Positions 18,256-42,338 of a stretch of 64,000 bases of DNA are shown piece by piece. Origin of the DNA: Pempheris klunzingeri (taxonomy: Eukaryota; Chordata; Actinopteri; Acropomatiformes; Pempheridae); NCBI RefSeq assembly GCF_042242105.1, contig NC_092013.1, positions 13,261,618 through 13,325,617 on the forward strand, given 5' to 3'. The translations under genes were made by a program, and so were the position numbers. Every line of letters starts with the position of its first letter. Within the stretch, counting starts at the first letter, position 1. The notes beneath the pieces were generated by a model. It worked only from the letters and a program-made list of their open reading frames with translations. It did not search any database and was not told the origin of the DNA.

Positions 18256-21200
18256 ATGTCCCAGCTCCAGTTTCAGTGTCCGGCTAGCCCCATGCCTGCT
18301 ACCTCTGCCCCACTGCAGTTGGGGCAGCCACAGCCTGGCTACAGCATCCCTTGTGCCTCAGGCACCCTGCCCTCGGAGAGCGCTAGCCAGCCTGTCCGGA
18401 GCTCCGCTCTCCCAGCGGGCTCAGCCACTCCCTACAATACCACCACAGGTTTGTTTTATTCATTTTTTTCATCGCTGTCATTAATTTTTTTCATGTATAG
18501 TAAAATACTACTTTTTGTTTAGCCACTTACTTTAGAATATCATGTTTTTCTTTCTTTTTGATTTTCTTTTAAGGCTTGAAAAAGCATACATTGGGTATTT
18601 GTTAGATTAACATTTTGTATTTCACACCCATATTCTCTATATTGTACTGTCGATGTACGTCACAGCCACTGCAGTTGAAATATTTATGATGTTATGCTTC
18701 TCGTACGCTGCATGTTGTTCTCCGACTCTTTGTGTATTTGTTGTCGGACTTTGGGACTAAGAACAACCTTTAGTTGATGATCAGATTTATTTGCTTAGCT
18801 GTGGATATTTTGGATCAAATTTTTGCTTTTTCACAGTATCTAACATGGCAAACCCTAAAGAGAAGACACCCATGTGTTTGGTGAATGAGTTAGCCCGTTT
18901 CAACAAGATCCAACCTGAGTATAAGCTGCTTTGTGAGCAAGGACCAGCTCACTCCAAGGTACTTTGAAAGTAGTTTTTTCAGACAAACCATTCATGTAAC
19001 ATTATCTATGCTGTTGTCGCCCTTTGTCACAAATTCATGCAGGTGATGTAGAACCTATTGTATTTCCTCTCTTTCCTGCCTTGGTCAGATTTTCTCAGTT
19101 AGGCTCACACTGGGAGATCAGCACTGGGAGGCAGAGGGGACCAGCATCAAGAAAGCCCAGCATTCCGCTGCTGCATCTGCCCTCGCTGAGACAACACTTC
19201 CCAAGCCCACCGTGAGGACGCCCCGCAACACAGGCAAGAACCCAGGTGGGCTCTTCCCACTGGCTCTGTCACAGTCTCTTACTAATGCCTGATGCCGCTT
19301 TGGCGAGACTTTGCTGATATATAGTTTTATCTTTGGTTTCCTTTGTGTTGCCCTTGCAGTAGATGGCATGACACATACCATGGAGTTAAATGCACTATGT
19401 ATGAAGCTTGGTAAAAAGCCTATGTATAAACCCATTGACCCCTACCCGGGCATGAGACCACCAAACTTCAACTACAATGTCCGGGCTCCAGGACCTTATC
19501 AGCGCTCTATGCAACAGTGAGTTTACTTTATGTGGACATTAGGGGAAAAAATCTTCCAGTTTGTGTAGATTTTGAATAACTTCTTGAAGGCTGTTTTTTC
19601 TAGATGGAAGAAACCGTTGTATTTGACTTTTTTTGTGCCCAGGTACTACTACCCATTTCCTCCAGTGGGACCAATGTTATACCACATGGAGCTTTCCATC
19701 GGAGGACAGCAGTTTATTGGGAAGGGACGCACACGGCAGCTAGCCAAACATGACGCTGCTGCCAAAGCCCTGAAAGTGCTGCACAAGGAGCCAATATTGC
19801 AACAGTTGCCTGTGGTGAGAAAAGAAGTGCACACTCAGCATGAAACAGAGCTAGAAAGTCTTTGCGCAATTGTATTCAGTCTTATTGCTCTTATTTCATT
19901 AATATACTTTCTGCCCTTGACAGATGAATGGCGAGCCCGAGGAGGAGAACCTCAACAAATCCGAAATCAGTCAAGTGTTTGAAATTGCACTTAAACGCAA
20001 CTTACCTGTCAATTTTGAGGTGATTTATACTGTTATTTTTTATAAATATGTAGATATATATGTGTGTGTGTGTGTGATATATAAAAAGATATATGAGCCC
20101 AGTTTCTTATCCACATCAGTAGGAACACAAATGCTCCACATCATGATTTTCCACTGTTGTATTCCAGGTTTTAAAGGAAGAAGGGCCTCCCCACATGAAG
20201 AGTTTTGTAGTGTGTGTAACTGTGGGGGAGTTCACTGGTGAGGGCGAAGGAAAGAGTAAAAAGATTGCCAAGAAGCTGGCGGCAGCAGCGGTGCTAGGGG
20301 AGCTGAAGAGGTTACCTCATATACCCAGTGTGGAAAAGACGCTGCCACGCATCAAAAAGAAAACCAAATCCATCATCAAGGTAATGTATCCATTGAGGAG
20401 GAATAAGAATAATGTGAACAGACCCCAAGACTCTTCATTAAGTGACGCTTAACCTTTCACGCCAACAGCTGCAGACCAGTCCAGAATACGGTCAGGGTAT
20501 GAATCCCATCAGCCGCCTGGCTCAGATCCAGCAGGCCAAGAAGGAGAAGGAACCGGAGTACAGCATGGTGACAGAGAGAGGTCTACCTCGGCGCAGGGAG
20601 TTCGTTATGCAGGTGATTTGACAGCAACTGAGGCAGCATGACTTGTCCAACATCTGTTATTGTTAATTCTTCACCCACTCAGATGTTTGGTTGCTGTGTG
20701 TTTTCTGGTACAGGTGACGGTGTGCGGCCAGACTGCAGAGGGAATGGGACCTAGTAAGAAGGTGGCCAAGAGAAACGCAGCAGAGAAAATGCTGGAGCTC
20801 TTGGGATATAAAGTGCCTCAGCCTCAGCCCCCTAAACCGGCACTCAAAACTGATGAAAAGGTGCTGCTACACCTTCATCAAGCAAGTCTTGTAAACATGG
20901 CCAACTATAGTTAACCTTCATCCTTCATATACATATATTGTTTTTTTTTTAATATTTAGACCCCAGTGAAAAAACCTGGTGATGGGCGCAAAGTGACCTT
21001 CTTTGAACCTGGCTCTGTAGAGGAGGTGACATTGGGTAAGTGTCAATATATCTACTAGACTCCTGTATTTGGTCATATTGTTTCATTTATTATATTGTTT
21101 TTTTTGCGTGCTAAGGGGCCTTTGCAAATGTCTTGAAATCTTGAAGGTTCCAAGGAGGAGGACTTCCGCCTGCCTTACCTGAGCCACCAGCAGCTGCCTG

Positions 21201-23118
21201 CAGGTATCTTGCCCATGGTCCCTGAGGTGGCTCAAGCAGTCGGGATGTGCCAAGGATCCCAGGCCAAGGACTACAGTAGAGCTATGCCCAACCCAGGCAA
21301 GGCCACAATCACTGCCATGATTGCCAACGAGCTGCTTTACGCAGGGGCGTCCCTGACTGCTGAGACTATCCTGAAGAACAAAAATAACTTGAACCAACTG
21401 CCCCACGGACCCCTCACCAGGCCTTCAGAACAGCTCAGCTATCTTGCATCCGTGCAGGGCCTGCAGGTAACCTGCCAGCATATTCTCCTTTGTACTAGTG
21501 TGCATTTTGGACTCAAAAATTGTAAAAATTAAGTGAAATATTTTCATTGCTTGCAGGTGGAGTACAAAGATTTCCCCAAAAACAATAAGAATGAGTTTGT
21601 GTCACTGATTAACTGCTCCTCCCAGCCACCGCTCATCAGTCACGGCATTGGGAAAGATGTAGAATCTTGTCACGATATGGTGAGTTTTGCAATTTATCCC
21701 TGCGGTTTAATAATTGTCTTTAACAGCTTCATGTTATCTGCCAAAACTTACAATGCGAGGAATCACATTATGTGAGAAGAAAAAAACATGCCATCCAAAA
21801 ATCCACCAGTAATGTAGCAGCAACTTTGGTGACAAGATGAAATGAAGATGAAAGAAATCACAGAATAAGTATTGTCACTCACAATAACTTCATTCAATGT
21901 TAACAAAGCAGGGAGGGATATTTTACATGTTTTATGAGTGTTCTTGGCTGTATTTTTAGCTGCCAAATGTGTATTGTTCACCTTGTTTCCATAATAGTCT
22001 GCACCCCTCTATGAGCAGCTGTGGGACCAGACAAACAAGCTTTCTAGAATGTTTTTTTTCCAAAAATATAGATATGTTTCCTAACTGAACATCAAGAACA
22101 TACCATGAAATGGATTAATGATAAATCTTAGGAGGGTGAGTGTAGCCATGAACACGTGACCAAAAAGAGACCATGCACCATTATAATTACACAGTGGGCA
22201 CCCATTTGTTTCCAAAATGTAAGTTATTTTTTGAAGAATTATGAAGAATATACCTGCTACCAAGACAATGTAGCTCTACTTCCCAGGGTGGTACTCAAAT
22301 TTAGTAGTTTTTGCCTCTTGAAAATATTCACTGCTGTAACCTATTCTGTTCTTCACCTCTCTAGGCTGCACTGAATATACTCAAGTTGCTCTCAGAGTTG
22401 GACCAGCAGTCAAATGAAAGGACGGGAAATGGACCAGTCTCTCGGTAAGCTGTGACATCCACCGCCTCTCCTCTTGTAGCGTTGTAGTGTTTACACTTTC
22501 ATTCCACTAATAACGAAAACGACAAATCAGTCAGAATAGAAATGCTGTATGAAAACACTTCATTCAGCATAAAATGGCTTTTGTTGTTTCACACTCACCG
22601 ATGCTCTCCCAACAATTTTTCAAGTGGTGCATGTTTCCCAGGGTACCTTAGGAGATAATTTATTACATTTTGTAACATAAGTGGAACTTTCAGCTTTTGC
22701 TTAACTACTCTGGTTGTATTATACAACTGTTAGAAACGGTTGTCTGAGTGCTAATTGCATGGCTCTACTGCTGTAGCTGAGTACTTTCAAGCACTCATCA
22801 GGCTTTTATTTTTTCAAAAGCCTGCCCATGTCAAGGGTTGGATTTGGTGTTTTGCATGTCTTTTCCTGATTGTTTCTTATGTAAACAGCATATCGGATCT
22901 TTTTATTCAGTGCAAATGTAAATACTTGAAAGGAGTACATTCCGGCTGAATAAACACTGGTGCATGCAATGAAGGAATATTTGGGGGTTAACGTTTAACA
23001 GTGACGATATATTTCATTTATTTTCCACAGGTGTGGCAAGCAGGAAATGGAAGGTGACTTGCACCTCAAACAGGCTAACTCAAGCACATTGGCACAGACC
23101 CTGGATGGCACTGTTTAG
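18256..23118 (+). CDS. stau1: Double-stranded RNA-binding protein Staufen-1, with dsRBD1
   Basis: Binds structured mRNAs for localisation, translation control and Staufen-mediated decay in the cytoplasm. Coding exons: 18256-18448 (the exon itself starts near 18134), 18837-18958, 19089-19245, 19360-19516, 19643-19814, 19924-20019, 20168-20380, 20469-20612, 20714-20860, 20960-21035, 21147-21466, 21557-21679, 22365-22444, 23031-23118. Total 2,088 nt, 695 aa. The N-terminus (MSQLQFQ..., ending in SALPAGSAT) parallels the long human STAU1 isoform. dsRBD1 lies at about residues 74-143, split dsRBD2 165-258, dsRBD3 278-345, dsRBD4 381-448 and the dsRBD5-like end 585-655. A Staufen-swapping motif ([15 protein letters not shown]) lies in the 320-nt exon. 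STAU1 rather than STAU2 is shown by [15 protein letters not shown] and [19 protein letters not shown]. Compared with human STAU1 it gains dsRBD1 and a C-terminal extension of about 20 residues. Confidence 0.96.
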
Positions 23119-23512
23119 ATGATCAGGTTTGGTTGTCTGTAAAAGCACTAGAGAAAACTCAGACACTGTGTTCTTGGTCAGTTTTTGAAGGCCACAGGAA
23201 GCTTTGGGCACTGTAGGCTCTGAACCATCACTGTTCATATTCATTGATCCAAAATGGTCACAGTTAAACAAGATTGATCGGAAAAGATGGCGTCTTCCCC
23301 TTGATGTTGTTTAATTGTACACAGTATTTATTTTGTCGAGTTGTAGAAAAAGTAGCTGCATCCTAGTCAATGAATTGGGGGTTTACTTGATGGAAAAAAT
23401 GATTATGCGGTTAACTGTGAACTGTTTTGTTTTGCCTAGAACTCGTTTCCTCTCTGTTCTACTAACACTTGTTTTTAAGTCTTTTATGTTTTATCCCCCG
23501 CGGAGGTAGTTC

Positions 23513-23992
23513 ATTAAAAAGATCTTGTAAAGGTTCGGACCTCATCTTTGTCTAGGGTGCAGCTGGCGAACCTCTGTTGATTTTCCTAGAGTGCTTTATA
23601 TCAACAACCAGTGTTATCGACATTACCATGTAGGGCCGGGAAGAATCTCTGACTAAATGTACCGTGTGATGTAATGTGACGTTGTCTCTGCTGTGTGTGG
23701 CAGAGACGTTTCCCTGTTACGTCAGTTTCCCTGATACTCCCCTTTCCTCTCTTATGTCAACCTCCCTTTCTCTCGCCGCTCCCCATGGTAATTAAACGTG
23801 CTTACGTGCACAAAACAAAGACTTCTGTTAACTTGTCTTTTTCTTTACCAGTGGTGGAATATATAACTGAGAAGCTTTAGGTTATCTGGGGCTGTACGAA
23901 TATTCAGTATTATCATTTATTAACTTTCACTGCTATCATATTGTGTCAACTTTTGCTAAATTACTGTTTTCCAAATCAATTATTCCAATAAA
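23513..23992 (+). terminator. stau1: stau1 candidate poly(A) signals
   Basis: ATTAAA at 23513-23518 and AATAAA at 23987-23992 follow the stau1 stop (ending 23118). Another AATAAA is at 24533-24538. The first implies a 3'UTR of about 0.4 kb; which one is used cannot be told from sequence. Confidence 0.45.
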
Positions 23993-25576
23993 TTTAAGAA
24001 AAAACTAACAAAGTTAGTCATTAAAGTTGTGTTTTCAGTCTGGTAACAGCAAGTGCAGTTAAAGAATTCAGTCGATAGTAGTGAAAGTCATGAACACTGG
24101 ATTAGTCGCATGTGTTAATGTAACCTGTAGGTCCCTTTTGCTCAGGTTGGCAGTTTGAATCCGGCCCTGGAAAGGCGGACTCCGCCACTGACAACGAAAG
24201 CTATTGAGAGGTAATTCCAGACCGTAAAACAAATTGAATCAAAAATGGGGGTTTCATTTCATTAAAATTGAAAGGATATAAACTAGGAAGTGTTTTACAC
24301 ATTTTCTGTTGTAGTCAAACACTTGATTGCATTTAGCATCTATTTGATTATTTAACATATTGTTTTGTACACATTTAGCCATATCATGATATTAATCAAT
24401 ATTAGGAAAAGTCCTAGATATTGTTTAAATACTGCTCACCCCTGGGGTCCAGTGAAGGTCCGACGATCGTCTGAATTTGATTCTGCTTATCAAAATCTGG
24501 TTGTGACTTTTGTGATAATATTTGAGTTTTAAAATAAACACGAAAGGGTCTAAATTTGAATCAGAATGTAACAAAGCTACTAATTGTATCACCATTGTTG
24601 TATAATGAGGTATTCAATAGTCTCTATGCAAAGTTTGCCTGTTTTCATTTTTATCTCCGAAGTTGGAGCTCACTCTGGGACATTAGGAGTACGAGTAGAG
24701 ACGTTTCAAACGGTACATTCTTACATTATGCTGTAGGACATGATTCATCATTAGTCATACTTGCATGAAAATATTTTTGGCCAGTGATTATGTTTATGTA
24801 CCATTTTCACTGCTGTCTTATGAGATTAGCCACACTTCACCGCAGGGAGAGTGCAATAGGTCCAGATGGGCCCTGAAAGGTCCTCGCGGTTTGTTTGTTT
24901 TTAGCATCAGTGAGTGAAAATGAAAACGTTCCTCGAATAAATTATCGGAAATTATACTTAAAGCATTTCCAATTCAGAACTAGTTCTAATTACCCAAATC
25001 TGAGTGATGGCATCATTACATTTATTACATTACATTTATTAACAACACAACGCAGCATCACATCAGCCAGTGTGTTTTCTATTTGTCAATCATTTTATTT
25101 TATATTATAGTGATAATAACAATAATAATACACGATACAGCACAATGTTCTTGTAAGTTACAGATATTAAAGTCTTCCTTTCCCCTTTTGGTCAGTCCAG
25201 GATTCAGTCACCTTGTAATTTCACAGGTTTAAGGTGAAAATGGTTACAAGAGGCTTTAAAGTTGAATCTGAACATTACCGAAATGTTTTTGGGGTGCTGA
25301 TGACCACTTGGCTGAGTCGTCATCGAATACACGCTTCTGAATGATCAGTCTCAAAATCTAAAGCCCCCTCCGTTTGGCCTCCTCACTGCTTCTTACCATC
25401 CACATGTTATTGAACCCCGGCTGTAGCTGTTTGGTCCACTGTTTTGCAGGCAGGCAGAAGGATTTTTTTTTGTCTTTTGTTGCATCATTTGATAGATCAT
25501 AAACCCTTTGAACGACATTTGATTTTAATTTAAAGGATCTGACTCCCAAAGCTGTCTAAACTGTACTTGGGTGTGA
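23993..25576. other. Convergent intergenic/3'UTR interval between stau1 and the RDH10-like gene
   Basis: No exon-like sequence is visible. The interval separates two genes transcribed toward each other and must hold both 3' ends. A minus-strand AATAAA (TTTATT at 25094-25099) lies about 480 bp beyond the stop of the dehydrogenase gene and is a candidate poly(A) signal for it. The rest is AT-rich unique-looking sequence. Confidence 0.5.
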
Positions 25577-28013
25577 TTATGCAGCCTTAACGAGGCTATT
25601 AGACGCTTGTCTCTTCCTGCTGTCAATGAAGGGGTACATGCACTTGTCAGACCCCATGAAACGATACGTGACCACGTTGGATTCCCATGGCAACAATCTG
25701 AAAGAAGAATGAAGAAGCGCTTAAAGATTAACTCATGGCCTTTGATTAATTTGAAGGTGTGGCTTTGTGCTTACGCTCTGGAGATGACGGGCAGGTAGGT
25801 GAGGCGAGGGATGCACACTAATGGTTGGTCTACCAGGATGGCATTCATGGCCTGCTCAACACAGTACTGGGGCTCCAGGGGGCATAAGAGCAGTTCCACT
25901 TCCTCCCTATTAGTGGCACCAAAGGACAAATGGGCTGTCACTTACGAGTAAATATGCAGCGTTTTGACAGGGAACCCGTGCTCAAGCATAAGCAGCCACT
26001 CTAACAGAATGCTTACCCAGGTCAGCGCTCCCTTATTCATGTTCCTACAGTAGTATACAGGAATTTAGAATATGAACAGATTACCCCACTATCATATTTC
26101 AGCATTTTTCATTAATAAAAAAAACACAAACATCACCTCACAGAATGATGAATATTGTGTGAATAATGAATATTGGATGTGTTAGGTAAACGGGTTATAA
26201 TCAAAACATCAGCAGTTTCACATTTTGTTATATTCAAGAAGTACAGTTTAATGATGGGATGTGATTCTAAAGCCAATAATAACAGTGTGTGAGTATTTCA
26301 TTGACGTACCGTATCTTGCAGCCTTCAAACATGCCCGTGTCGACGATATAAGGGCACACAAGAGTGGTCTTCACGCCTTCAACGCCCTCAGCCAGCAGCT
26401 CGTGGGCCAAAGACTCGTGGAAGCCCACAGCAGCAAACTTACTGGCGCAGTAATCCTGTCTCGGAACAAAAATCAAAATTTGTTTACTGTGTCTCACTGA
26501 ATATTTGCAAGATTATTTGCAATTTGGCAGACCTGCGCAGACTGCTGTTTTCATGTGTTTGAGTTTGTATCTTCATTTGTGTGAAAGACTGTGACTATAA
26601 AGCTGTCGTATCTTAGTGTTGCAGAGATTTTTTTTCTCCCTCCTTGGTTCACCTCAACGCAAGCTGTGCTGAAGAGGCCGAGGACGCTGGCGATGGTCAC
26701 GATGTGTCCATGATTCTGGGCCTTCATCTGAGGGAGGAAGGCCTTCACTGTCTGAGGCACACACACACACACACACACACCACACACACATGTAGTTATG
26801 TTGCACCAGGTTATTACGAGGCAATAAAACGTGCAGTGTTCATATGACTTGTAGTGACTTAAATGTTGCTCAATGTGAAGGAAGCTTATGTTGCACGAGC
26901 AGCTTCATATTAAGAGGATTTTTGTGGGAATCCTGCAGTCCTCAGTGTGAAGGGGATAAAGCTATTAACGCCATACATTTTACATGTCATGTGTCACACT
27001 ATGCACAATAACCTGCTCTGTATGGCAGCTGATGCTGATGAGATTATATACATTGTGAAATTGAAAACCTTCTCTAAATATCAGTCAGAGCTCAATCATT
27101 GTCTGCGTACTTAAAAAGTGTGCACATTTAACTGATTTCACTATGAAAGTTTTTTCTGTTCATGCACAATTTAAAGAACTCAATATTTGGCCGTCATTTA
27201 CAGCAAGAGTTACTGATCGGGGCATATGACCATGACTTATTCCTGTACCGTACTAAGAAAAGGAGTTATTGTTCTAGCTTAGAGGATTAATATGACAGTT
27301 ACAGTTCACAGGTTTTATCTTAAGTACCTGTGCTGATTAAGTGCCACCAGCCACAGACATACAGTATAGACTGTCTGTGACATCTATACTTTATCTATAG
27401 CTGGCCTCCAACTAATAGGAGATTTTATAGAAGTCAAGGGGAGCTGGATTTCCTGTCTTGTCTTAAGAATGTTTACCTACACCTCTGAGAGGCTTCAACA
27501 CTTCAGGTGTGATGGTTGAAATGTCATCAACACATTTCATATTGAGTAAAGAGTTCTCACCCAGAACAGGGCGTGACAGTTGACCTTCATGGTCCTCTCC
27601 ATTAGCTCATCAGGACAGTCTAGCATGCGCTCCCCAGCCACCACCCCAGCATTGTTCACCAGCATAGTAACGTCCCGGCCCAGGTCTTTTCGCACAAGGT
27701 CTGCGTTGCGATACACGTCCTCCCTGTTGGTCACATCCACGGTGTAGGTGTACGCCTTACCCCCCATCTCATGCACCAGCTTGGCTGTCTGCTCATTGGT
27801 GCTGCTGTCGATGTCCCACAGCACCACTTCTGCCCCATGCTTGGTGAATTCCTGAGCAAAGAGACGTCCCAGGCCGCCGCCTGATCCGGTAATCAGCACC
27901 AGCTCGCCATCAATGGGCTTGGTGCGTGGGCGCATGACGAGCCGCACAGAATTTCGCAGGATGAAGTAAATCACATCCAGCAGCATCATCTGGAGGTCCA
28001 TTAGAAAAATCAT
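25577..28013 (-). CDS. RDH10-like retinol dehydrogenase (SDR16C-type short-chain dehydrogenase/reductase)
   Basis: Predicted membrane-associated NAD(P)-dependent oxidoreductase. The closest family known to me is RDH10, which oxidises retinol to retinal. Minus-strand coding exons: 28013-27561, 26751-26653, 26455-26310, 25906-25775, 25697-25577. Total 951 nt, 316 aa. A hydrophobic N-terminal segment (about residues 7-27) would anchor it in the membrane. The cofactor motif TGSGGGLG is at 42-49 and NNAG at 120-123. The catalytic tetrad is Asn145, Ser173, Tyr186 and Lys190 (DYCASK), all intact. RDH10 signatures include [26 protein letters not shown] and DKCMYPFI. Human RDH10 carries an insertion of about 25 residues after the second beta strand, which this protein lacks, as SDR16C5 does. 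It is therefore a relative or ohnologue rather than clearly RDH10 itself. The start is the first ATG of the open exon; internal Met5 is also possible. Substrate is inferred. Confidence 0.9.
26758..26790. repeat. (CA)n microsatellite at a splice acceptor
   Basis: A CA array with a single interruption near 26780. Read on the minus strand it is a (TG)n tract that ends directly before CCTCAG, the acceptor of exon 2 of the RDH10-like gene (exon starts at 26751). It takes the place of a normal polypyrimidine tract. Confidence 0.95.
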
Positions 28014-31000
28014 GTTGCTCTACTTTACTGCTGATGGTCGTGAATATTATAACAAGTGTCTCAGTAACCTACAATTGATTAGACTTTACACCGGTCACCA
28101 GTAAAGGTGTGCTTTCCTACTGCCTGTCTAAGTGCTAGATTGTGTGAGAGCAGAGGATGCAGACAGCCAAGCTGGTGTTTCCCTCCTTCTGTGACCCTCA
28201 ACCTCCAGCCATGGTTTATTTAAACACTTTCCTCCCGGATTAGAGGAAATACCTTGAGCTCCTAATAAAACCGTGTTTGTTGAAAGCGATGAATGTATGC
28301 ATTTTCACCATTACTGTGGAAAATAACATGTGCCAGACGGCATTACACAGAGTTAAAGATGCTTGAAGCTTCAGGGTCTTTGTAGATCATTATTCAAAGT
28401 TCACAGCTTGCTCACCATGTGCACGTGTAACTCTTGCATAGCATGTACACAGATGTACATACAACACCTCTGAATATTACTACATATAACTATACGAACT
28501 GCTTGCAGGTTTATGGAGATTATATCTTTAAAATATCTGCTTTTTATTTGTGTAATCATTTGAGTTTATCTCTATGGTCTCTCAGTATAAACAAAAGGCA
28601 GAGGATGAGGCGGAATGATACTGTACGTGCTTACGTTGAGGTAAAGAGATGAATCATCACGCCTGACTTGAAATGAGACAAATTGGTGATTTTTCACCAT
28701 GCGTTTCTATCATGTAATTATAGTCATAATTATCCCCTACAGTATCCAAAAATTATCATGTCAGTGGCTTTTACAGGCGGCAGCGTGATAAAGAATTAGG
28801 AAGCAAATTCATCCCTAATTGTGGAAGGATCTCAATGCAGCGTATTCCTGATGTGAAACTAGAAAGATTCTACATATTGATAAATTCCAGGCACAGCTGT
28901 ACCAGTGTCAAGCATACCAGAAAATAATGAAGAGGACTAATGAGTGTTTTATATATTTCTAAGTAATACAGAAGTAAGACAGTGAGAATGAGGAGCTACA
29001 AATTACGTACAAATACTCCAAACCTTACAGATCCCGAAATATCTTGTACATGTGCGTGAGGACAGTGCAGTGGCTCAGAGGTTGTAGTTGAGCAGTGAGT
29101 TAAAGGTTTTGGATCAGTGTTCAGTGAAGAAACGCTATTCAAGGACATGGTTCCAGGTTCTGCTCTATAGAATAGTCCACTGCATATTAAACGAGAACAT
29201 AAGGAGATTATGTGTGTGTAAACTGTAAATCTCTGCATTGTTTCTTATGTCCCGAGAACGCTGCCTGTTGTGTATCAAGTTCTTGTTCTCTGTAGGTGAA
29301 CACTGCCAGCCTTGTTTACTCCCTATATTGGTATGTGGGTCATATTTAGAGAATCATACAAGTGACTCTGTGTATTTGTAGATGACAATGAACCTGCAGA
29401 GACTCAAAACAGCTTGAGAGGGCAAATCTGTCACAATAATCATCTGCTATTATTGTCAGTTATGTTATTGTTGCATCTTATGAGTAATGTAAAGATCATC
29501 TGTTTTTATATGCTGTCTACTCAAAGGAAACGTTAGATACAATGACAACATTTTAACCCAGTGGGGGCTTTATATCTCAGATAAATATTTCTATTTCTAA
29601 AATACAGAGTACATTTACAGAAATGGGTCAAGGCTGTAAGAAGGAGGTTAGTCTAAATACTGCCAAGAATTTTGGCCTACTGTGATTTGTTGAGCAACAC
29701 TTGGAAACGGCAGCAAAGATCACATCATAGTGAGTGCTTTGAATGTAGTGGTAATACCTGAATTCTGGCATGCAGATCAAGTGATGTGGATCCAGTGTGG
29801 AGCTGTGTTTGATTGATTGCCTGCCAGTTTCCTCCGTTGGATGTGCCATAAAAATAATACAAGTTAGGCTGTAGCGTAGTGTTGGGTTCAACCCTGGGCA
29901 TCTATCTGCCTTTTGTGAACTGAGTTTCTTGAATCTGTGTAACTTTTCACCTTTTTTGAACATAAAAAAACTTTTCTTTTCTCGCTAAAAAGATCTGTTG
30001 AAATGAGAAATGTAAGAACATGAGAGAGGCTGTGGGTACTCGTATGGACTGTGGCTGCATCCACTTAGTGCTGACTGCAGTAAATGAACACGGCCCTCAT
30101 CTCTGCAAGCTACACAGTTTTGTAGACACACATGGGATACACGTCTTTATGTGTGTGGCAGTGCATATATGTCTCCCTCTGCCATACAGCATGATTGTTA
30201 GTCTTGATATTGTGGTGTTTCGAGCAGCATTATCATTCTCTGAGCTCCACCCATCTCCCCCTCTTTCTGTTCCTGTCATGTCCCTCTACACACACAGTAG
30301 AAGGCTACTGGGAATCTTAGTTTGAGCAGAGGCCTGCACTGTCCGCACTGTTGTTCTTTTTGCATGAATAACCTCGGCCATAGGAGTTTCATTAATCCAC
30401 TCTTTTCACATGTTGAGGCACACATGGGCCTGGGAAGCTGGCAGCTTCACCAGCAGATTGAGTGAGAGAGAGAAAAAGGCAGTGAAAGAATTTAAGCAAA
30501 CAGACATTTATTTTACTGTATTTTTGCAAGTGAAGGTGGATTGTGACACATTCTGTCTTTTCGTTTCCCTTTGTTTTTCTCCACATTTTACCGATAATTT
30601 CAACAGAAAGTGTAATACACCATGCAAATGCGGCTCAGTGCAGGGTCTGTATCTTACTTTTTATTCTGTTTCTGCTCCTCAGCACCCACAATCAGGGGTG
30701 CAGCTGTCTTTATCTCTTTTATATCATACTTCTTTTCTGTACAGAGCATTGTGGCGACATTACTACTGTAGTATTCACAGACAATTCACGGCGGGCTAAT
30801 GGTTAAAGTATTCTAAAGCAGGACAACCTTTATCAAAAAAATTAAAGTACAGAGAGGAGAGACTTCTGTCTTTTCAGTTTTCTGTCATGATGCTTGGACA
30901 AGATGAGGTAATAAATCAACTGTACAATAAAATCAAGAATTCTGATTTATACATTAGATCTAATAGTTAGATAATAGCCTAAATGATCTTACATTAGTGA

Positions 31001-31247: not shown

Positions 31248-34200
31248 ATGACAGTCTGGAGGCGCAGCTCAGTCCCTTTGGTGTGTCTCGGAGTGTCTTT
31301 ATTCCTCGTCGGTCCCTGTCAGTCGGGATGTCGGGAAACGCGTCAGTGTTGCACCGGCCGCGACCCGTCATGCATCAGCAAAGGATGGAGATCCGACCGG
31401 TCCTACGGCACCTGCTACTGCGACCAAGCCTGTGTGTCCACCCTGGACTGCTGCCACGACTATGAGACAGCCTGTCCCGGTGGGTTTGTGATGATGAGAA
31501 AAGTTTTTATCACAATTCAAACTCTAGGGGAATTGCTCTCATTACAGTCCAGTGTGATGCTATTAGTCAAGTTTGTGAGTTGAAGACTTGTTCCTCCCCT
31601 TTGATTATAAATGACACCATATGCATCAGGCAAAAACTTAAATAACAAAATTATAGAATTAACAAAATTCTCTTATTATTTGTATTAAAAGCCACATGTT
31701 TATGTATGTGAGGGCTCGGTGGCTTTAAACAAACCCAAACTGGCAAAGTGTCACAGTGATGTATTGTATCTACCTCAACTAACCCCCTCCAAACAAACCT
31801 AGTGAAGCCTGACATCCAGTTTCCTGTGCCTACAGTGTCATTGCAATTTTCTAATGTGCAATCTTAATCCACAGATGTATGACAACTGTTGCTGCTTATG
31901 CCCTGTCTCTGTCCCCTCAGCGGTGTCCTGCGTGGTGAGTGAGTGGACCGAGTGGTCGGGCTGTGCCGAGCCCTGCAGGGCCACAGTTCGCAGGCGGAGC
32001 AGGATGGTTCTGCAGGAACCGCTCAATGCAGGCAAACCCTGTCCCCATGTGGAGGAGCACGCTGGCTGTGCAGAGTACTGGTCGCAGCAAGGGCACTGTC
32101 ACAACTCACTGGGTGAGAAACGTCTACCTGGATCCCTCCACACACACACACACCCATGGGATCATCACTTTAGTGTCTGACATTCTTCAATAATCAGAGT
32201 TGTTGTTAGTACTTAATGCTATTATCCTACCCACCTGAAGACAGCTCATCCACTGAGTCATACAGTGTGTGTGTATATTAACACAATGTGTGGCCCTGAA
32301 AGTAATTACATGAAAAATATGACTTAAAGGGCCACTAAAGTAAACAGTTATTCTAAAGTGCGATTAGACCAGTTGATGTCTCAAATTAATAGCTGAGACC
32401 AGAGACTAGAATCTCTTAGACTTTGGCAATGTCAAAGATGAACACCCACATCTGATGAACAGAACAGAAGACAGATCATTATATATGTGATCCATCAGTA
32501 ATTAGATGTAATGTAATGTAACATTATTGGTGATTTCTAGGAGGATGTTCAGTGAAACAGCAAAACAAAAGAGTTTTTCATTGCTGCCTTGTTATTTTAG
32601 ATTCATCAACAGTATTAAACAGACAGTCAACATCTAGACTTACTGAATATAAAAGTTGTGATACTTGTGCAGCCTTTAATCATTTGATTAACAAGTATTT
32701 TAACATTCAGAAGATTCGACCTTGAATTCACAATAAAGAGTGTTTAAAAGCTCTGATGTCACTTTGTAAGGATTGTAAGTATTTGTACAAGTGCACTTAA
32801 TACAGCAATGTTATTATGAATTTATGTTTCACTTTCAAATAGTGTGGAGATACTGATGCAAGAGGTCTTCACAGATACTGCAGTAGTATATGTAGTGTGA
32901 AGTCTAAAAGAAGTCACATATCTTAAGATGTTTATGTTTCTTAAATGTAACATAAGTCAAACAAAATGTAAATTCAAGAGTGCATAAAATGAGCCGCCAG
33001 AGAATCCTACCTTTTAAATGTATAAAGCTCAGTGTTGCATCATATGGTCACATGTAATGTTCTCATCACGGATGATCCCTCCGCAGTCCCAGCGCTTATT
33101 ATCACGGGTGGCTATGGCAACGCCAGGAAGAAAAGAGACATCCCTGACGGCAGCGACATTATAGGGTAACGTGTTCAAAGAGTCGAGAAAAATGTGGAAT
33201 AACGCTCACTTTCTCCTTTGATCTGTTCTCACGTATCGTCGATATGTCTGCGTGTGTTTGTGTAAAACAGGTATTGTGTCCAGTTTCAGCTGACCTCTCT
33301 GACAAATGGATGCCAGCAGAGTGCGGGCCCACACACTCAGTGGATGCAGTACCTGAGGGAGGGGCACCATGTGTGTGTCGAGTGCCAGCCACCTGCTCTC
33401 GCTGCTGGACAGACTCACTGTGCCGGAGACGGAGAGGAAAATGAGGAAGACAGGCAAGTGTGAAACAAATAAAGATATGGCTCATCAGATTATTATCATG
33501 TTTCTTCCATTAAAACATTGTCACATCACATCTTACTGCTTGCTTTTTTCACTGTTGTAAAAATAAAAGTTTGACAGTTAACGTTCTTTGAATTTAGAAA
33601 GCCTCACAGATTTAAGCTTGTGTTGTTCAGTTAATGACCATAAGAGATAAAGTATTTGTTTTTAAAGCTCAACTAAGGGTTTAATCAACCATGAAATTAA
33701 CTTGAAGTTCATTTTTCTCATATGTAAAAAAAACTTCGCTACACTAATGAAGGTGACCTTTCCGTCTCACTCTATGGCAGAGCCAAGTAGTTAGTTCTGT
33801 TATTATCAGCTAAAAGCAATATACCACATGAAAGTAATTGCAACTATTCTTACTCATATTATTCTTACTTGATGATCAAAAAATTGGTGGCAATATTCAC
33901 ACAGAAAAAATGTTACAAAATATCACCATTTGTTTTGTTTGCTTACAAATGCTTATGCAGTCATTTGTTTGTTTGGTGCACTATGCACAGGAAATGTGAA
34001 CATAATGTAGTTTGGATATAATCTTCTGAACCCTACATTGTCGTCACCTCGCTCCAGTTGAACCGGAAATTTACCTGTTTTTGTTCATGGAACAGCACTT
34101 ACACATTATTGCAGCAGTGATTTACTATAGGAGGACAATAATCAGAGAAAAGTCAACAAAGACATGAAGAGACTAATGAAATTGTTATATTCTCTATCAG

Positions 34201-35014
34201 CTGCCAAAGAGTAATCTAGCTGTCTAGCTGCTGGTAGGCAGATTTTATTACTTTATTACTAGCTGTCTATCTTCCTTTCTTTTTGCTAAGCTAAGCTAAC
34301 CAGCAGCTAACTGTGGCGTCACATTTACTACACACACATCTTCTCCTCTAACTCTCAACAAGAAAGCAAATCATTGTTCCAAAATGTAGAACTACTTTTA
34401 AGGCACCACAAGTGTTGATATTTTCTGTAATTGCATTGTTAATAAAAAATAGATGCCACAGGGAACCTTTAATTCCAAGATATGTTAAACTTAAATTTAA
34501 CCATATCATATCCACAGGGGGCATGTTTTTGAGTGGGCTTATATTTCAATTTAAAGGGAGTATATTAGCAGATATATGTGCTTATCTGTACAGCCAACAA
34601 ATATTGTCAAATATTGTGCCCTGGCACTTGTGACACAATATCTGTGTCTGTATTTTGAGAGATGCAGTGATTAATAAAGTAACGATATGTAGATGAATTA
34701 TGATGGGACAGCATGGGTCACATTTCCAAGTCTTGTTTTTGTTTGTTTTTCATCCCAGACCACTGATCTACACCCCATCTCCCAAATGTGATTGGGAATA
34801 GTGAATACTTCCACTAGATGGCAATATTGTTTATCCCTTGGATTGAAAGAGAAATCTTGTGACCACTAACTGTTCCTCCCTCCCTCCTTCCTGCAGAAGA
34901 CAGTCTCTCCAGTGGCAGGCGGTGGGAAACCCTCGATGCAGGGGTGTGTGGAGGCGTGTAGGGAGGCTGGAGGCCTGCTCCTGCCCAACAGCCCACAGCT
35001 TCCTCTTCATCTAA
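31248..35014 (+). CDS. sbspon: Somatomedin-B and thrombospondin type-1 domain-containing protein (SBSPON-like)
   Basis: Secreted, probably extracellular-matrix protein of unknown biochemical role. Coding exons: 31248-31479, 31921-32112, 33087-33165, 33271-33453, 34897-35014. Total 804 nt, 267 aa, against about 264 in human. A signal peptide (residues 1 to about 26, hydrophobic LVCLGVSLFLVG) is followed by a somatomedin-B domain (27-77) with the ten-cysteine spacing of human SBSPON, including GTCYCDQAC and DCCHDY. A thrombospondin type-1 repeat follows (about 80-132, SEWTEWSGC). The C-terminal module has GPHTQWMQYLREG, VCVECQPP and a final CSCPTAHSFLFI that closely matches human. The last intron begins AG|GCAAGT, a GC-AG donor; the nearby GT would break the frame. 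I chose the ATG at 31248, which begins the signal peptide. By position beside stau1 and kcnb1 this may be an ohnologue of mammalian SBSPON rather than its direct orthologue. Confidence 0.92.
34201..34402 (+). repeat. Percomorph-type dispersed repeat inside the last SBSPON-like intron
   Basis: Contains GCTAAGCTAAGCTAACCAGC, then TCTAACTCTCAACAAGAAAGC and a terminal CCAAAATGTAGAACTACTTTTAAGG-like tail (ending about 34402). I recognise this series from many perciform genomes as a high-copy interspersed repeat. It is non-coding here. The class was not determined. Confidence 0.55.
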
Positions 35015-37802
35015 CCTTCTCCTTGCTTCTAATAGCTCCCCTCCTGTACATATTTACACAGATACATGTATTAAGAACAATCTCCCAGTATTATAAACCC
35101 GTTCAATTTGAGAGTGCTGGTCAATGCCTAATAGTGCATTTTTGGTTGTAATGACCAAATTTAATGTTCTCCAGAAGCACATGTAACTGCATATAAATAT
35201 TTTATTGATATGGCTGAATGTGTGCCAATGCAAATTCCTATTTCCTAGTCAGAATATAATAGGCTACATTTACTGCCCTTACTGCACAACACCAACTTTA
35301 ATAATACATATTCCTTTTTTTTTTGATTCACAAAAAGTGAGTGAATGATACATTTATAAAAATGAAAGTCAGCAATTCCTAATCAAAATGTAAAGTGATC
35401 TGATTTATTTCATTTTGAGTCATCCAAGGGAAATGTTGCTTTTCTTAAGAAATAGAAATATCTTGGGACATTGAGACACTTTTTTTTACATGACAAGTAC
35501 TGGCTCTGTGTGAATCACAACCAGTCACAACGGCAAGTTACAACATGCACTGAACAATAGAACATTTATACAGAAACAACAGCATAGAAATTCAACAGGT
35601 AAAAATGTTGTTGCTTTTTTTTTTTTTTTTTTTACAAAACAGACAGCCTCGGGACCTACAAACAACATTGTATAAGAGCTGGCTAAGTTTCGTTCAAATA
35701 TCTTTTTTTAATTCCCTGGAAACAGTGTACTTTACAAAGACTGATGGCTTAGGCAAGGTTGGGGTCAATTCCACTGAGAGCTTAAAACGTAGAAAAAATA
35801 TAGTTTATGTTTTAAATTTGTACTAGGTTTTAATTTGTCTCATGCTCTAATACTGGTTTCTTTTATAGTGTCATGTGTGATGTTTTACTCCATCAAGGCA
35901 TCCTGAATCGACCCCAACCCTGTAATACAGTGTTAGATTCAGAGGATGTGGAATTGGGCTACTTGCTAAAGCAGTGGTTCTCACTGGGTTTTGGAAACTA
36001 CCATATGTCCTTGAAAAGGGTCCTAACAAAAATGACAAAGACTTTTACCTCTTTACAGATAAATTTAGCAGCTAGTGTGACAACCAAATCCTATTTTAAG
36101 TTGCAACTAAATGCATTTACTGTACAGTTGGGTGTCTCATTATGGAAAATCTTGAGAAGCTGTGCTCTTCATCGTAATTTGTATCAATATATGAGAAATA
36201 AAACAATTCATTTGAGTGAATTTTCTTCATTAAGCATGATGGTTTAGTCCTTTGATTCACATCAGAATTTCTCCACAGGGATCTCAGTGAAATGAAAAGC
36301 TTTTTTTAGACTATTAGATTTCATTAATTTGAATGGCTCCCTTGGAGATGGAGAGGAGTTAACTACCCAATCAACATAAAAACATAAAAACATTGATGAC
36401 TTGTAAAAAAAAAAAAAAAATAGTACATCTCTTATATTATGGTGGTATCATGTCACAGTATCACAGTCTGGTTATCAAATCACAACATCATGCTTGATGT
36501 TTCTTTGCACTACCTTGTCTAAAAGCTTAAGGGTATCATGAGTATCAGGATTTCAATACTTGTGTTTGTATGTATGCATATGGGTGCGCATTTGTGTGAT
36601 ATTTGCCCATAATAAATGTTAGTTCTCTACAATAGTGCTTGCTGCCTATTTGTGGAATATTGATTGTCATCATTGTTGAGAGATCTTTCAGTGAAAAATG
36701 GTCCCTGACTACCGTAATATATAGAAAACCTAAATTATGGGATAGAAGCTCACGTGATGCTTCATGAGAGATTGCATGATCTGAATGCCCTTTATCTTTG
36801 TGTTGAAATAAAACTTAATTTACCAGTTTTTTCATGATGTAATAAACTCAGATGGACATGTCTGACTGAAATTTGGTTCTTCACAACTTCAAGAAACAGT
36901 TTAAACTCTTCATGATTTAGGTGTAACAAAGTTAAACAAAACTGAAATGTTTGGCATACATTGGCCTTGACTTCTCATGAGGCAAAGATAAATATGCAAT
37001 GAAGGAACTAACATCCAATCCATCTATGAAGCAAATGTTTCTCTTGTTGAGACTGATGTCATTTAAGCAAAGTCATTTTAAGCTAAATAAGATGGGCAAG
37101 CTTGCAAGTTTATCATGTGTGAAGTATTAAGGAACAAATTGATTAATGTCAATTAAAGGAGCAGACATTCATAGCGTGTTTTTGGGGGAGACTGTTACAA
37201 ATTATTTAAGCTTAATATCTGCAGTCAATTGTAGTGGCTCATTTCCAAAATAAAATCATTTTGTTTGGGAACACCTCTTTGCAGATGATACTTAAGTTTA
37301 TGTCTGAAATCCCTTTTTTGTGAACATAGCTTATAATATTAGCAGATACTTTTGTTTATATGCAACAAAGGACGATGAGAAATTTTACTTGAATAGAAAA
37401 AAGGATGTTGTGAGTCATAGTTTATTTCCGAGCTGACACTGTAAGGTTACATAAAAATGATTTGTCACTAGTTTAAACCACTCACGCTTGCCTAATTATG
37501 TGGTGCGTGCTAAATAAGATTCATAAAATGCCCTTCCCATCCCTCTGTGCACAGCTGTAAATGAAGCCGTTCTTCAAAGATTAAATGTGTGCTAATGTAA
37601 TCTTAATTTTTCATGTGATTAGAGATCTCTTGATATTACAATCTGTTTTACTGCTGCATGTTAGGATCAGAACTGCAGATAGAATATGGAGAAAACAAAA
37701 GCAGGGTTCCCCCGACATGCATACATTCATTTCGGAAACAGTTCATTCTTTTCCATTAAGCAGCAGCCCCGCTGCTCTAATGCCCTGGCTTTACAGCAGT
37801 CA

Positions 37803-37829
37803 TACACACACACACACACACACACACAG
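37803..37829. repeat. (CA)n microsatellite
   Basis: Short uninterrupted CA dinucleotide array in the intergenic region. Confidence 0.93.
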
Positions 37830-38978
37830 AGTTCCCTCTGCCTCTCACAGTCATTGCTATTCCTTTCACACCTCTGCTCCTCTCACTATGGGAGAGCAAT
37901 ATGAAATGGTTCAACTCTGTGATTATAACAGGAAATTAAATCAAGGTTTGTGATTAGACACATTACATCTTTTTATGTCGATCACCTTCTGTTGATTTTT
38001 GAATCAAATTTTACTCAACACATGCATTCATGATAGTACGAGGACCTTTTATTTGTAGGTTTTTCCAAATATATTTGTGTTTGCTTGATTAGTTTTCTTT
38101 GAGTATGTTTCGTTCTCAGTGAGGCTCTTCTTCACTTATCTCATTAACACTGGAGAAAGGTGGGATGACATAAGACATTATATTTTTACAAATTTTTACA
38201 GGCATTTCAGTGACATTGTACCTTTACACTTGGAATCAGATTTCAAGGGATTGACGGAGCAACAACAAACAGTAGTCTCTACACTAAGTCTGCTCATGTT
38301 AGCACGGATGCACAGTTCATTTCAATATATGTTTAAATTCACATTTATGAGGTTGAGATTACGATGAAGACCATGTCAGCACGTTTTTCCCTGTCTATGC
38401 AGTGTGAAGTGTATAGCCACTCTTGTAATATCTTGTTTTAACAGTGTTAAGTGACCACTTTAACAGTGGTAACTTTACATTATTTGTCACCGTGGTTTTT
38501 ATTCTATGTTACTGACAATTATTTTATGATTTTATTTTTTTGTTATTGTAGTTTTGCTACATGAAACAATTTGGGCTGCATGTTTGTATTAAAGGGGCTT
38601 ATATAAATGTTATTATACAAAAGTTGAGTTTATTTGCTATGTAAGGCCGTTTCTCTCTGCTAACAAAAACAAACAAATAGATGATAGAGAACGCAATTTG
38701 GGGGAATTGTAGTATTTATGGGATGCTACAAAGATTTTAAATGTAAACATAACAATCTACAAAGTCCTTACATTATAATGTTGCTTTTACATAGTACTTA
38801 TAAATATGCACATTGAGGAGTGGCTCTGATGAAATGTGACTATTGTGCAAACGTGTCACTTTATGGATACATGCCTGTGTGTCATCTTGTATATGTTGAG
38901 TATATGTAACATGCAACCAGACCTTCTCGCCCCAATTAACAAACTGTTGCTGAGCTGCAGCCTTTGAGGACAGCTGCT

Positions 38979-38992
38979 GTCACTATGGAAAC
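38979..38992 (+). promoter_or_regulatory. RFX X-box-like motif
   Basis: GTCACTATGGAAAC fits the RFX X-box pattern of two half-sites around an AT spacer. It lies downstream of kcnb1. Motif evidence only. Confidence 0.25.
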
Positions 38993-40415
38993 TAAATGTA
39001 TCCTGAAGATTGTCTTTCATACCTGCACGTATCTGAAATGGGTGTGTGTGCTCATGCAGGGTTTCATCAGGTCGGGCATTTACAACTGACTTATGGTTAA
39101 GTTTACCAGGTTGTGTATATTCAGTGCTATTTAAGTTTATTTTGACAATTTAAGGAACAAAGTAGAGATGGACCCACCCCCCACCCCCCCTCCCACTCTC
39201 AATATCAAATACATGCATATCCCATTATCTGAGAGTGTGCTCTCTTTGGCTGCTTTCATGTTGGTCAAAGGAAGGCCAATGCATGCTGAACATGTGTTAC
39301 TGAAATCTTAAGTTTATGTCAGTAATCATATGCTGTCAACATAAAAACTATATTAGAAGATTTTCATATATTTAATTTTAAAAGCATCGCATGTTTTTAT
39401 AAGTTGAACGGTTGGGTGCATGCATGCTTCTAAAATGTGCGCTTTATGCAGCAATCAAGCTTATTATTTCTGGCTGTTATGTTAGCCCATATCAAAAATT
39501 CTTGGTCCACTACTATCCTTTATGAATGATACTGAGGTGCTAAGACAATATTCACTGGTCAAGATTTGAAAGTATCATCCATTCTCACCATGACATGATA
39601 ACACAGGGGATAGCAAAATACTGTTCAAGAATGAGCGCTCATTATAATAGACGACAGGCTGAAGTCTCTGATAACTGCAGCCTCTTTGCCAACACAGTGA
39701 ACCTTATACAGGATTACTCTTCACATATGATTATGACACAGCAGACTAGCTTATCACATATTTCTATAAGGAACTTTCTCTTATCTATATAAAAATAAAT
39801 CAGGTAAGACAATCTCAAGAGTGTGTTTACATGAATCACCATTAGATCATCCATCAACATTCACTCTCACTCACACACATGCACACACACACACTTATAT
39901 GCAGACCCCTACAAATGTAAATGACTAAGGCCAGTTTGGGAATGGAGGGCACAAGTAAGTAGCTTATAGGCTTCTAGGTCCTCTCCTGTATCTCCAAGAC
40001 TACAAAATGAACTGGGACTCAGTAATGGGATAGTGGGCAGCTAGGATTTCTTTCCTGGATATTATCGAGATAACTCTGCTTCCACAGGGATCTCTGAACA
40101 CACCAGATGGCTACCCGGAAGTGCTCCTTTGTTTTGTGGATGTGTAATACCGCTAATAGGAATGAGTTGAAGGAGGGGCAGTGACATTCTCCAATTTAGA
40201 AGTGTTTTTCTCCCAGAGTATTCACCACATATGTTCATCCTGAGCTTAATGCTCAATAGCATGCTCAGGTAATTTGTCATTTGAAATGTTTCAGTGAGAC
40301 CCTTTGTCTCTCTGTCTTGCTTTGTTTCTGGCTTATAGTGTTTTTAGCCTATCCAGAGTCTCCATCACAAACACTCTGGCCCCAGTTTCCTGTTTATTTC
40401 TGCTTCACTTGTACC

Positions 40416-42338
40416 TCAGAGGCTTTTATCCAAAGTATTTTGACGCCCCCTCTCAACCTTTGGTCTTCGTGCCATGTCGGGACCTACGTGATTCTCATGA
40501 GCTACCCCACGAATCCCTTCAATGGGGAACAGACAGTTCTGGCCCAGGATTTTTTGAGCTGCTTCTAAATGGTTGGTACCTTTCTGGTAATTGATATTGA
40601 TGCTGCATTTGGGGCTTGAACCAGCCAAAAGGCGCTCTGAGGGACTGGTGTCAGAGACATCCCGGAGGTGCTCATCATCATCTGTATCGGCGTCGATGTA
40701 TTTGCTGATGGAGGAGTCGTGGAAGGTGAAGACAGTTGGGGCCAGGCCACTGCTCTCTGGGGACTTTGGTGGGGTTCTGCTGCTGGCAGTGGTGTAGACA
40801 GAAACTTCAGGGCTTAACAGAGAGTGGTCTGACAGGACTGAGCTGTCTGAGACTGGGGACGGGCCTGACTCTCCCTCGCTGCGGCAGCCTCCTTTGGAGA
40901 TGAGGTTTTTTGAGTTGCCCGAAAAGAAGAATTTCCGTGCATTCTCTGAGCATGAGGGCTTTGTGACCGACATAGGGGTCAGCATGGGCTCACGCTCCCC
41001 AGTGGTTTGATTGCCTGCCTTTGCATGCGTGTGCTGGGACAAAGTGGTTGCCAGACTGTGGGAGAACCTGTTGCTTTCATGAAGACCAAGGTCCATCCCT
41101 GGACTAAGCGGGAAACGGGGATTCTCCTGGAAGTCTGTGGCACAACTGATGTAGCTGTCAATGCTGGACAAGCTTTTCATATCGCCTACTCCCTCTCTGG
41201 TTCCCAGCACTGATGGCCCATGATCTTGGATGGCCCCCAGCTCTATCTCATCCCTCTGTTTTCCACCTCTGGAGCCCCTGTCTTTAGCATTGAGGTTTGG
41301 CTGGGATTGTGTCTTGGCCATCTGGTTGTACATCTCCTCTAGCTTCTGAACATTTAGCCTCTGGGGACTGTTGGCTCGGGCCTTGTTGGGAGAGCCTAAC
41401 TCTTGGGCGTTGAAGGAACGGTTTGAGCTTGTCTCTGATGCAGCCCTCTTGGGGGTCCATTTCCAACGGCTTGGAGAGAGGTGGTTGTCATGAGGCCTCT
41501 CACTCTTTTCTACCACCACATCCATCAGCTCTGCACTACGAGCAAATGCCTCTTTTAAGTTCATTGACACAATGCTTCCATTTCTCTTCGCCCTCTCTAG
41601 GGCCTCCCTTCGTTTAAGTGCTTTTTCCTGCCTCTTTTGTTCCTTGTAGAATTCAGAGAAGTTATTTACAATAATGGGAATAGGTAGGGCAATCACCAGT
41701 ACTCCAGCTATGCAGCATAAGCCCCCAACTATCTTTCCCAATAGAGTTTTGGGGTAGATATCTCCATAGCCTACTGTGGTCATGGTAATAGTAGCCCACC
41801 AGAAAGAAGCTGGAATGCTTTTAAATTTTGTATCCTCCTCATCCTTCTCAGCGAAGAACACCAGACTGGAGAAGATCATGATGCCCATGGCCAGGAAAAG
41901 GATGAGCAGACCCAGCTCATTGTAACTCCTCCTAAGAGTGAAGCCAAGAGACTGCAGACCTGTCGAGTGACGAGCCAGCTTCAGTATACGCAGAATACGC
42001 ATGATCCGAAAAATCTGGACCACACGGCGGACGTTCTGAAATTGCAGCACGCTCTTGTTGGATTCTGTCAGAAAGATGGTGACGTAGTAGGGCAAGATGG
42101 CCAACAGGTCAATAACGTTCAGTGGACCCTTAAAGAACTTCCACTTGTTGGGGGAAGAGAGAAAGCGAAGCAGGTACTCCATGGTAAACCAGGCAATACA
42201 TACAGCTTCCACGTGGGCCAGTTGTGGGTTGTCTGTGGACTGGCCAAATTCATCAGTGTCCTGCAGCTCTGGAAGGGTGTTCAGAGACAAGGCAATGGTG
42301 GATAGCACAATGAAGAGGATGGAGATGATGGCCAGGAT
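40416..42338 (-). CDS. kcnb1: Voltage-gated potassium channel Kv2.1, last coding exon (partial gene)
   Basis: Pore-forming subunit of delayed-rectifier K+ channels in the plasma membrane. This single exon (640 codons plus stop) begins at an acceptor (TCTTTCAG) in S1 with [20 protein letters not shown] and runs to the C-terminus. It contains S1-S6, the S4 voltage sensor ([17 protein letters not shown], about exon residues 104-120), the selectivity filter TVGYGD (188-193) and S6 with PIPIIV. In the long cytoplasmic tail the clustering/FFAT-like signal reads [13 protein letters not shown], with Tyr where human Kv2.1 has Phe. Tail matches such as [15 protein letters not shown] and [12 protein letters not shown] identify KCNB1 rather than KCNB2. 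The tail is otherwise shorter and diverged from human in its middle. The first coding exon (T1 tetramerisation domain and N-terminus) is absent from the window and should lie beyond 64000. Confidence 0.96.

Follow-up and report, generated by a model that had tools for sequence, protein, structure and literature searches.

In the human genome KCNB2, SBSPON, RDH10 and STAU2 follow one another on 8q in this order and on alternating strands, and STAU1 and KCNB1 lie close together on 20q. The conversion of retinol to retinaldehyde is the first step toward retinoic acid; retinol dehydrogenase 10 (RDH10) is also designated SDR16C4. The production of retinoic acid in mouse and Xenopus embryos has RDH10 as a critical core component, according to one study (PMC4578954), in which the named zebrafish copies are rdh10a and rdh10b. 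In that study depletion of zebrafish Rdh10a had a modest effect, and other Rdh enzymes are put forward as a possible reason. Named fish copies are likewise given for tilapia, with rdh10a and a tandem rdh10-b on LG5, in a paper whose main text contains no occurrence of stau, kcnb or sbspon (PMC8073704). Among the matches listed, no paper dealt with a sister of RDH10 or SBSPON at the STAU1/KCNB1 locus.

The window, as we call the whole stretch of 64,000 nucleotides of Pempheris klunzingeri DNA analysed here, contains stau1, an RDH10-like gene, an SBSPON-like gene and the last coding exon of kcnb1 (Table 1), and the places and strands given for all four in an earlier note agreed with exon assembly or ORF positions. 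That note had regarded the arrangement as the sister of the STAU2/KCNB2 block. When rdh10 and sbspon were looked for beside stau2 and kcnb2 in the same genome, which among vertebrates was the one searched, they were found on C21, and the inferred sister block is thus present in this very fish. Order and orientation are the same for four of four genes, so that the window arrangement is not due to chance; C21 has rpl7 in addition, and RPL7 was not found in the window with a provisional query sequence. We consider it very probable that the window is the type-1 half and C21 the type-2 half of one block, and that the type-1 half was later duplicated again. According to this model an ancestral stau-rdh10-sbspon-kcnb block would have been copied by the whole-genome duplications of early vertebrates (2R), the type-1 (human 20q-like) half leading to the window and the type-2 (human 8q-like) half to C21, and this fish would have retained all four genes on both.

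Table 1. Location and structure of genes in the window and in the C21 block
Gene	Position	Strand	Structure
pbrm1 (polybromo; presumed) exons	5265..14518	+	unassembled; outer limits by eye from ORF list
stau1	18256..23118	+	14 coding exons; 695 aa; intact, splice-joined frame open
RDH10-like	25577..28013	-	5 coding exons (28013-27561, 26751-26653, 26455-26310, 25906-25775, 25697-25577); GT-AG introns; 316 aa; intact
SBSPON-like	31248..35014	+	5 coding exons (31248-31479, 31921-32112, 33087-33165, 33271-33453 with GC donor, 34897-35014); one GC-AG intron; 267 aa; intact
kcnb1 (Kv2.1) last coding exon	40416..42338	-	transmembrane core and C-terminal tail; within ORF 42365-40416; start near 42338 inferred from frame
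stau2	C21 10944169-10975475	+	
rdh10	C21 11035485-11026235	-	340 aa
rpl7	C21, between rdh10 and sbspon	+	
sbspon	C21 11053197-11055911	+	5 coding exons
kcnb2	C21 11069821-11067989	-	

The assignment of both end genes to the type-1 paralogues holds. One double-stranded RNA-binding domain of stau1 scored 111.3 bits against a STAU1 chain (6sdy) versus 94.5 bits against a STAU2 chain (1uhz), and a search of the genome with stau1 matched multiple exons only at the window locus and at one C21 locus that is 50–79% identical. The kcnb1 exon scored 794 bits against a Kv2.1 chain (9o10) and contains the Pfam domains Ion_trans and Kv2channel; a search of the window with a provisional Kv2.1 T1 domain sequence revealed no first coding exon. 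In the KCNB tree the window gene grouped with a second copy on C2, the chromosome of the window (97/97), and the C21 gene fell outside under midpoint rooting. The names stau2 and kcnb2 for the C21 and C15 genes were given by linkage and lower identity, the trees being built without STAU2 and KCNB2 references.

The RDH10-like protein shares with RDH10 an SDR domain (adh_short, 159 bits), cofactor and active-site motifs and a C-terminal DKCMYPFI stretch, and the three middle exons are equally long (99, 146 and 132 bp). Classical SDRs are marked by TGxxxGxG, an Asp for NAD, NNAG and a catalytic Ser-Tyr-Lys set, all of which are present (an 11-residue stretch at 42, D67 after VLW, NNAG at 120, and S173, Y186 and K190). 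In the ncbifam scan 217 families matched; the best 25 of the 217 are generic SDR models that stayed under their cut-offs. By contrast, the protein is shorter than that of C21 and lacks an RDH10 insert of approximately 25 residues, which is absent from both C2 copies and present in C21 rdh10, where it is interrupted by an intron, as well as in human RDH10 (provisional sequence). It also falls outside the RDH10 clade, and hence carries neither of the two marks of the RDH10 orthologue group. SDR16C5 (epidermal retinol dehydrogenase 2), a related short-chain dehydrogenase that is likewise without the insert, differs by its identity to the window protein (46.9% for a partial model of the fish C15 gene, 43.2% for the provisional human sequence) and, on C15, by an extra intron of its own after VYRVADQ. 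The window RDH protein had multi-exon matches at two C2 genes as well as on C21 and on C15. Two weaker RDH matches lie near C2:20.69 Mb.

In the RDH protein tree, whose human sequences, like those of the SBSPON tree, are provisional, the window gene grouped with the second C2 copy (100/99) and C21 rdh10 with human RDH10 (96/96), with SDR16C5 and DHRS3 outside. A fish-only clade was disfavoured by AU tests with DHRS3 in the set (p 0.027) and, under two models, without it (p 0.0477, which is borderline, and 0.0131); in the tree of the borderline test the branch joining C21 and human had 93/96 and was not starred. Site patterns agreed, with C21 and human sharing 102 columns, window and human 11, and window and C21 six. 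A recent fish copy of RDH10 is rejected by the tree, the AU tests (one borderline) and these patterns. Tree placement and the missing insert indicate that the RDH split is older than the split between fish and tetrapods, as expected of a 2R ohnologue.

The split might also be a tandem duplication that preceded 2R, the neighbours having been lost differently from the two blocks. The RDH10-like branches are long compared with RDH10 (stem 0.30, tips 0.34 and 0.27), and the difference in insert and intron would fit; this scenario, which requires an extra duplication and two losses and whose branch lengths are explained by a faster rate after 2R, is nevertheless very unlikely.

The SBSPON-like protein appears to have the family architecture of SBSPON, composed of somatomedin-B, TSP1 and SBSPON C-terminal regions. 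PF25031 (SBSPON_C) and PF19028 (TSP1_spondin) exceeded the Pfam cut-off, Somatomedin_B reached 22.3 bits, just below its cut-off of 23.1, and the cysteines of the somatomedin-B exon align with those of human SBSPON (provisional sequence); zero families matched in the ncbifam scan. The C21 SBSPON (RPE-spondin) aligns over the full length and is encoded by as many exons, but is 48.1% identical and is linked to kcnb2 instead of to kcnb1 and stau1. The earlier note had taken both middle genes for old ohnologues that gene trees would separate from RDH10 and SBSPON. This was borne out for the RDH gene, with the one borderline AU value, while the SBSPON quartet placed window and C21 together with a weak lean (67/72; AU p 0.28 for C21 with human) and gave no decision. 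Site patterns were 30 columns for C21 and human, 25 for window and human, and 16 for window and C21. The case for SBSPON-like as an old ohnologue comes from its position, the tree being compatible with an old or a fish-specific split.

Both genes could instead have arisen within fish as copies of rdh10 and sbspon that came to lie between stau1 and kcnb1 by insertion, and the lean of the SBSPON quartet and the fact that the type-1 pair is seen here only as fish copies would suit such an origin. We regard it as scarcely credible in view of the AU results and the distribution of the RDH10 insert and its intron. Moreover, C21 rdh10 is 81.4% identical to human RDH10 (provisional sequence) versus 54.9% to the window gene, the two fish SBSPON proteins are less similar to each other than either is to the human one (51.8% and 53.1%; human sequence provisional), and two independent insertions with matching order and orientation seem implausible.

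A new finding, absent from the earlier note, is a second type-1 block approximately 1.9 Mb from the window on the same chromosome (C2:11.41–11.44 Mb), with kcnb1b, RDH10-like b, cse1l and pbrm1b. Of the two type-1 blocks, stau1 was found only in that of the window and a cse1l piece only in the second, as if the type-1 block had been duplicated again with reciprocal loss. Most likely this would have happened in the teleost duplication, the window copy keeping pbrm1, stau1, RDH10-like, SBSPON-like and kcnb1, and the other copy kcnb1b, the second RDH10-like gene, cse1l and pbrm1b; the timing of each duplication is inferred. No SBSPON relic was seen in the second block, where the best score was 20.0 bits; 60 shuffles gave a median of 19.6 and reached at most 22.7. 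Pairs from the teleost duplication (3R) typically show a duplicated block and reciprocal gene loss, with the copies usually on two chromosomes. The location of both type-1 blocks on one chromosome is contrary to the prediction of a plain teleost genome duplication. Segmental duplication within the chromosome would account for this location and for the distance of 1.87 Mb between the RDH10-like copies. We consider it rather unlikely because four-fold sites are as saturated (58/96 differ) as in the comparison of type 1 with type 2 (50/84), RDH identity is 64.4%, 163/205 residues are identical in one pbrm1 exon stretch, and stau1 and cse1l were lost reciprocally, all of which an old segmental copy would still fit. 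Under the preferred 2R and teleost-duplication model, the window and the second block are a clear example of a block duplicated more than once, with reciprocal loss.

Neither an RDH10-like nor an SBSPON gene stands between STAU1 and KCNB1 in two published human 20q gene lists, the second of which has one blank entry before KCNB1. In a dromedary GWAS table, however, one SNP on chromosome 19 has the entry 'SBSPON ZNFX1, KCNB1', which speaks against loss of SBSPON from this locus in mammals. The proposed mammalian loss of both genes is doubtful. Chicken SBSPONL, on chromosome 15 near SUSD2, was ruled out as evidence for the STAU1/KCNB1 locus.

The RDH10-like protein may be an NAD-dependent short-chain dehydrogenase that oxidizes retinol to retinaldehyde as RDH10 does, presumably anchored in the membrane, and the SBSPON-like protein is presumably a secreted matrix protein. 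It seems likely that two RDH10-class enzymes arose from 2R at the origin of jawed vertebrates, that the insert-free one was kept here as two copies beside kcnb1, that the retinoic-acid supply of fish may derive in part from an enzyme class now missing from this locus in humans, and that the SBSPON-like neighbour may persist in some mammals. Such an old sister enzyme would bear on the modest effect of Rdh10a depletion in zebrafish, and the insert offers a simple marker for sorting RDH10-class genes in other vertebrates.

Upstream of stau1 lies a gene which, from its sequence, we take to be pbrm1; two of its ORFs contain bromodomains and a third a BAH domain (30.3 bits, cut-off 30.8). The stretch from 45.5 to 63.3 kb is probably a kcnb1 intron. 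Ten of its 13 ORFs of at least 90 aa were scanned against Pfam with 0/10 matched, and one further ORF has a weak reverse-transcriptase match.

The window, placed at C2:13261618-13325617 of the 646 Mb genome, very probably represents the type-1 half (like human 20q, STAU1/KCNB1) of a block doubled in the early vertebrate whole-genome duplications (2R), and is the sister of the type-2 half (like human 8q, STAU2/KCNB2) on chromosome C21. All four genes named in the earlier note were recovered on the strands it gave, and its assignment of both end genes to type 1 agrees with their sequences: one dsRNA-binding domain of stau1 scored 111.3 bits with the STAU1 chain versus 94.5 bits with the STAU2 chain, and the kcnb1 exon matched residues 188-843 of the 858 of Kv2.1, the matches listed (60 of 192) holding no Kv2.2 chain for comparison. 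The four genes common to the window and C21 have identical order and orientation. In the same fish rdh10 and sbspon are present beside stau2 and kcnb2, in keeping with the 2R origin proposed earlier. SBSPON is also called C8orf84. The neighbourhood on C21 matches that of human 8q, where a published list places C8orf84, TERF1, RPL7, RDH10 and KCNB2 within 250 kb of an 8q21.11 SNP (PMC3297573).

Features of the window, the second C2 block, C21 and related loci
Feature	Location	Strand	Remark
pbrm1 exons	window, upstream of stau1 (type-1 block: window 5265-42338)		not assembled
stau1	window	+	intact frame
RDH10-like gene	window	-	intact frame
SBSPON-like gene	window	+	intact frame
kcnb1	window	-	last exon only seen
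K_chan_RES (RF00485)	window 41661-41774	-	81.2 bits
PF00078 match	window 60902-61243	+	E 1.3e-4, below cut-off
second type-1 block	C2:11409997-11444159		~1.9 Mb from window block
kcnb1-like exon	second C2 block	+	
RDH10-like gene b	second C2 block	+	315 aa
cse1l	second C2 block	-	CAS_CSE1 and Cse1 domains
pbrm1-like gene	second C2 block	-	bromodomains; BAH below cut-off
stau2	C21:10944169-10975475	+	genome search
rdh10	C21:11035485-11026235	-	
rpl7	C21:11038256-11041898	+	query: human RPL7 (not a database entry)
sbspon	C21:11053197-11055911	+	
kcnb2 exon	C21:11069821-11067989	-	
kcnb2-like copy	C15:23537223-23538314		
SDR16C5-like gene	C15:24606113-24616784		
third SBSPON-like gene	C7:10838175-10849572		one somatomedin-B exon, one TSP1 exon

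In a tree with SDR16C5 (partial from fish C15, and human) and human DHRS3 as the outside group, the human sequences here and below not being database entries, C21 rdh10 grouped with human RDH10 (96/96) and the RDH10-like gene of the window with that of the second C2 block (100/99). The window gene thus falls outside the RDH10 clade and not within it as a recent copy. That the RDH10-like and SBSPON-like genes are instead fish-specific copies is highly improbable. Forcing the three fish RDH genes together cost 9.8 log units (AU p 0.027 with DHRS3), and a fish-only clade without DHRS3 gave p values of 0.0477 and 0.0131 under two models; the former, being borderline, counts toward fish-specific copies, as does the fact that stau2 and kcnb2 on C21 are named by their linkage and their lower identity with the window copies, not by alignment to STAU2 or KCNB2 references. 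Columns in which exactly two of three proteins agree paired C21 with human RDH10 102 times, the window with human 11 times and the window with C21 6 times. C21 rdh10 has six coding exons and the RDH10 insert, which contains an intron; in both C2 genes the first coding exon is uninterrupted and the insert is missing. As it is missing from SDR16C5 and DHRS3 too, the insert was more likely gained in RDH10 than lost elsewhere.

SBSPON identities were 48.1% (window-C21), 51.8% (window-human) and 53.1% (C21-human), and a quartet with the more distant C7 relative leaned weakly to window plus C21 (67/72). In the midpoint-rooted KCNB tree the window and second-block genes paired (97/97), Kv2.1 was next and the C21 gene lay outside.

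Between the two C2 blocks kcnb1, the RDH10-like gene and pbrm1 are doubled. For the second block, 30 of 98, 30 of 38 and 30 of 82 open reading frames of three stretches were listed. Searches for SBSPON found none in this block; stau1 was seen in the window block but not in the second, and the reverse holds for a 128-aa piece of cse1l. The human 20q order in two published lists is CSE1L, STAU1, DDX27, ZNFX1, KCNB1 (PMC3745408; PMC3635907). This is what a further duplication of a single ancestral block, with reciprocal loss, would leave. The two RDH10-like genes disagree at 58 of 96 four-fold sites, the window gene and C21 rdh10 at 50 of 84, so each split is old and its sites saturated. Both type-1 blocks lie on C2; a probable second kcnb2 lies on C15 and not C21, as a teleost duplication would give. 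C15 also carries an SDR16C5-like gene and may be the duplicate counterpart of C21.

Neither human list (PMC3745408; PMC3635907) shows an RDH10-like gene or SBSPON between STAU1 and KCNB1, the second having one blank entry directly before KCNB1. A dromedary GWAS table gives "SBSPON ZNFX1, KCNB1" at SNP Chr19_10589993, with PTGIS, SNAI1 and CSE1L nearby on that chromosome; it also shows ARFGEF1 where ARFGEF2 is expected, and CSE1L again on chromosome 14 with DDX27 (PMC10357240). This entry offers a lead, not proof, for an SBSPON-like gene surviving in a mammal. The open-access literature searched yielded no description of an RDH10/SBSPON sister pair at STAU1/KCNB1. Such fish genes presumably stand in public annotations under RDH10-like names.

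By analogy with RDH10, the window RDH10-like protein may oxidise retinol. It has a hydrophobic N-terminus (by eye) and the motifs TGSGGGLG, Asp67, NNAG at 120, Ser173, Tyr186 and Lys190, with roles known from SDR enzymes in general, Asp67 going with NAD preference. The SBSPON-like protein has the predicted parts of a secreted matrix protein; intron 4 of its gene is GC-AG (donor at window 33454), the rest GT-AG. The kcnb1 exon contains a predicted RNA editing signal (K_chan_RES), and the reverse-transcriptase match is probably a retrotransposon remnant inside a kcnb1 intron.
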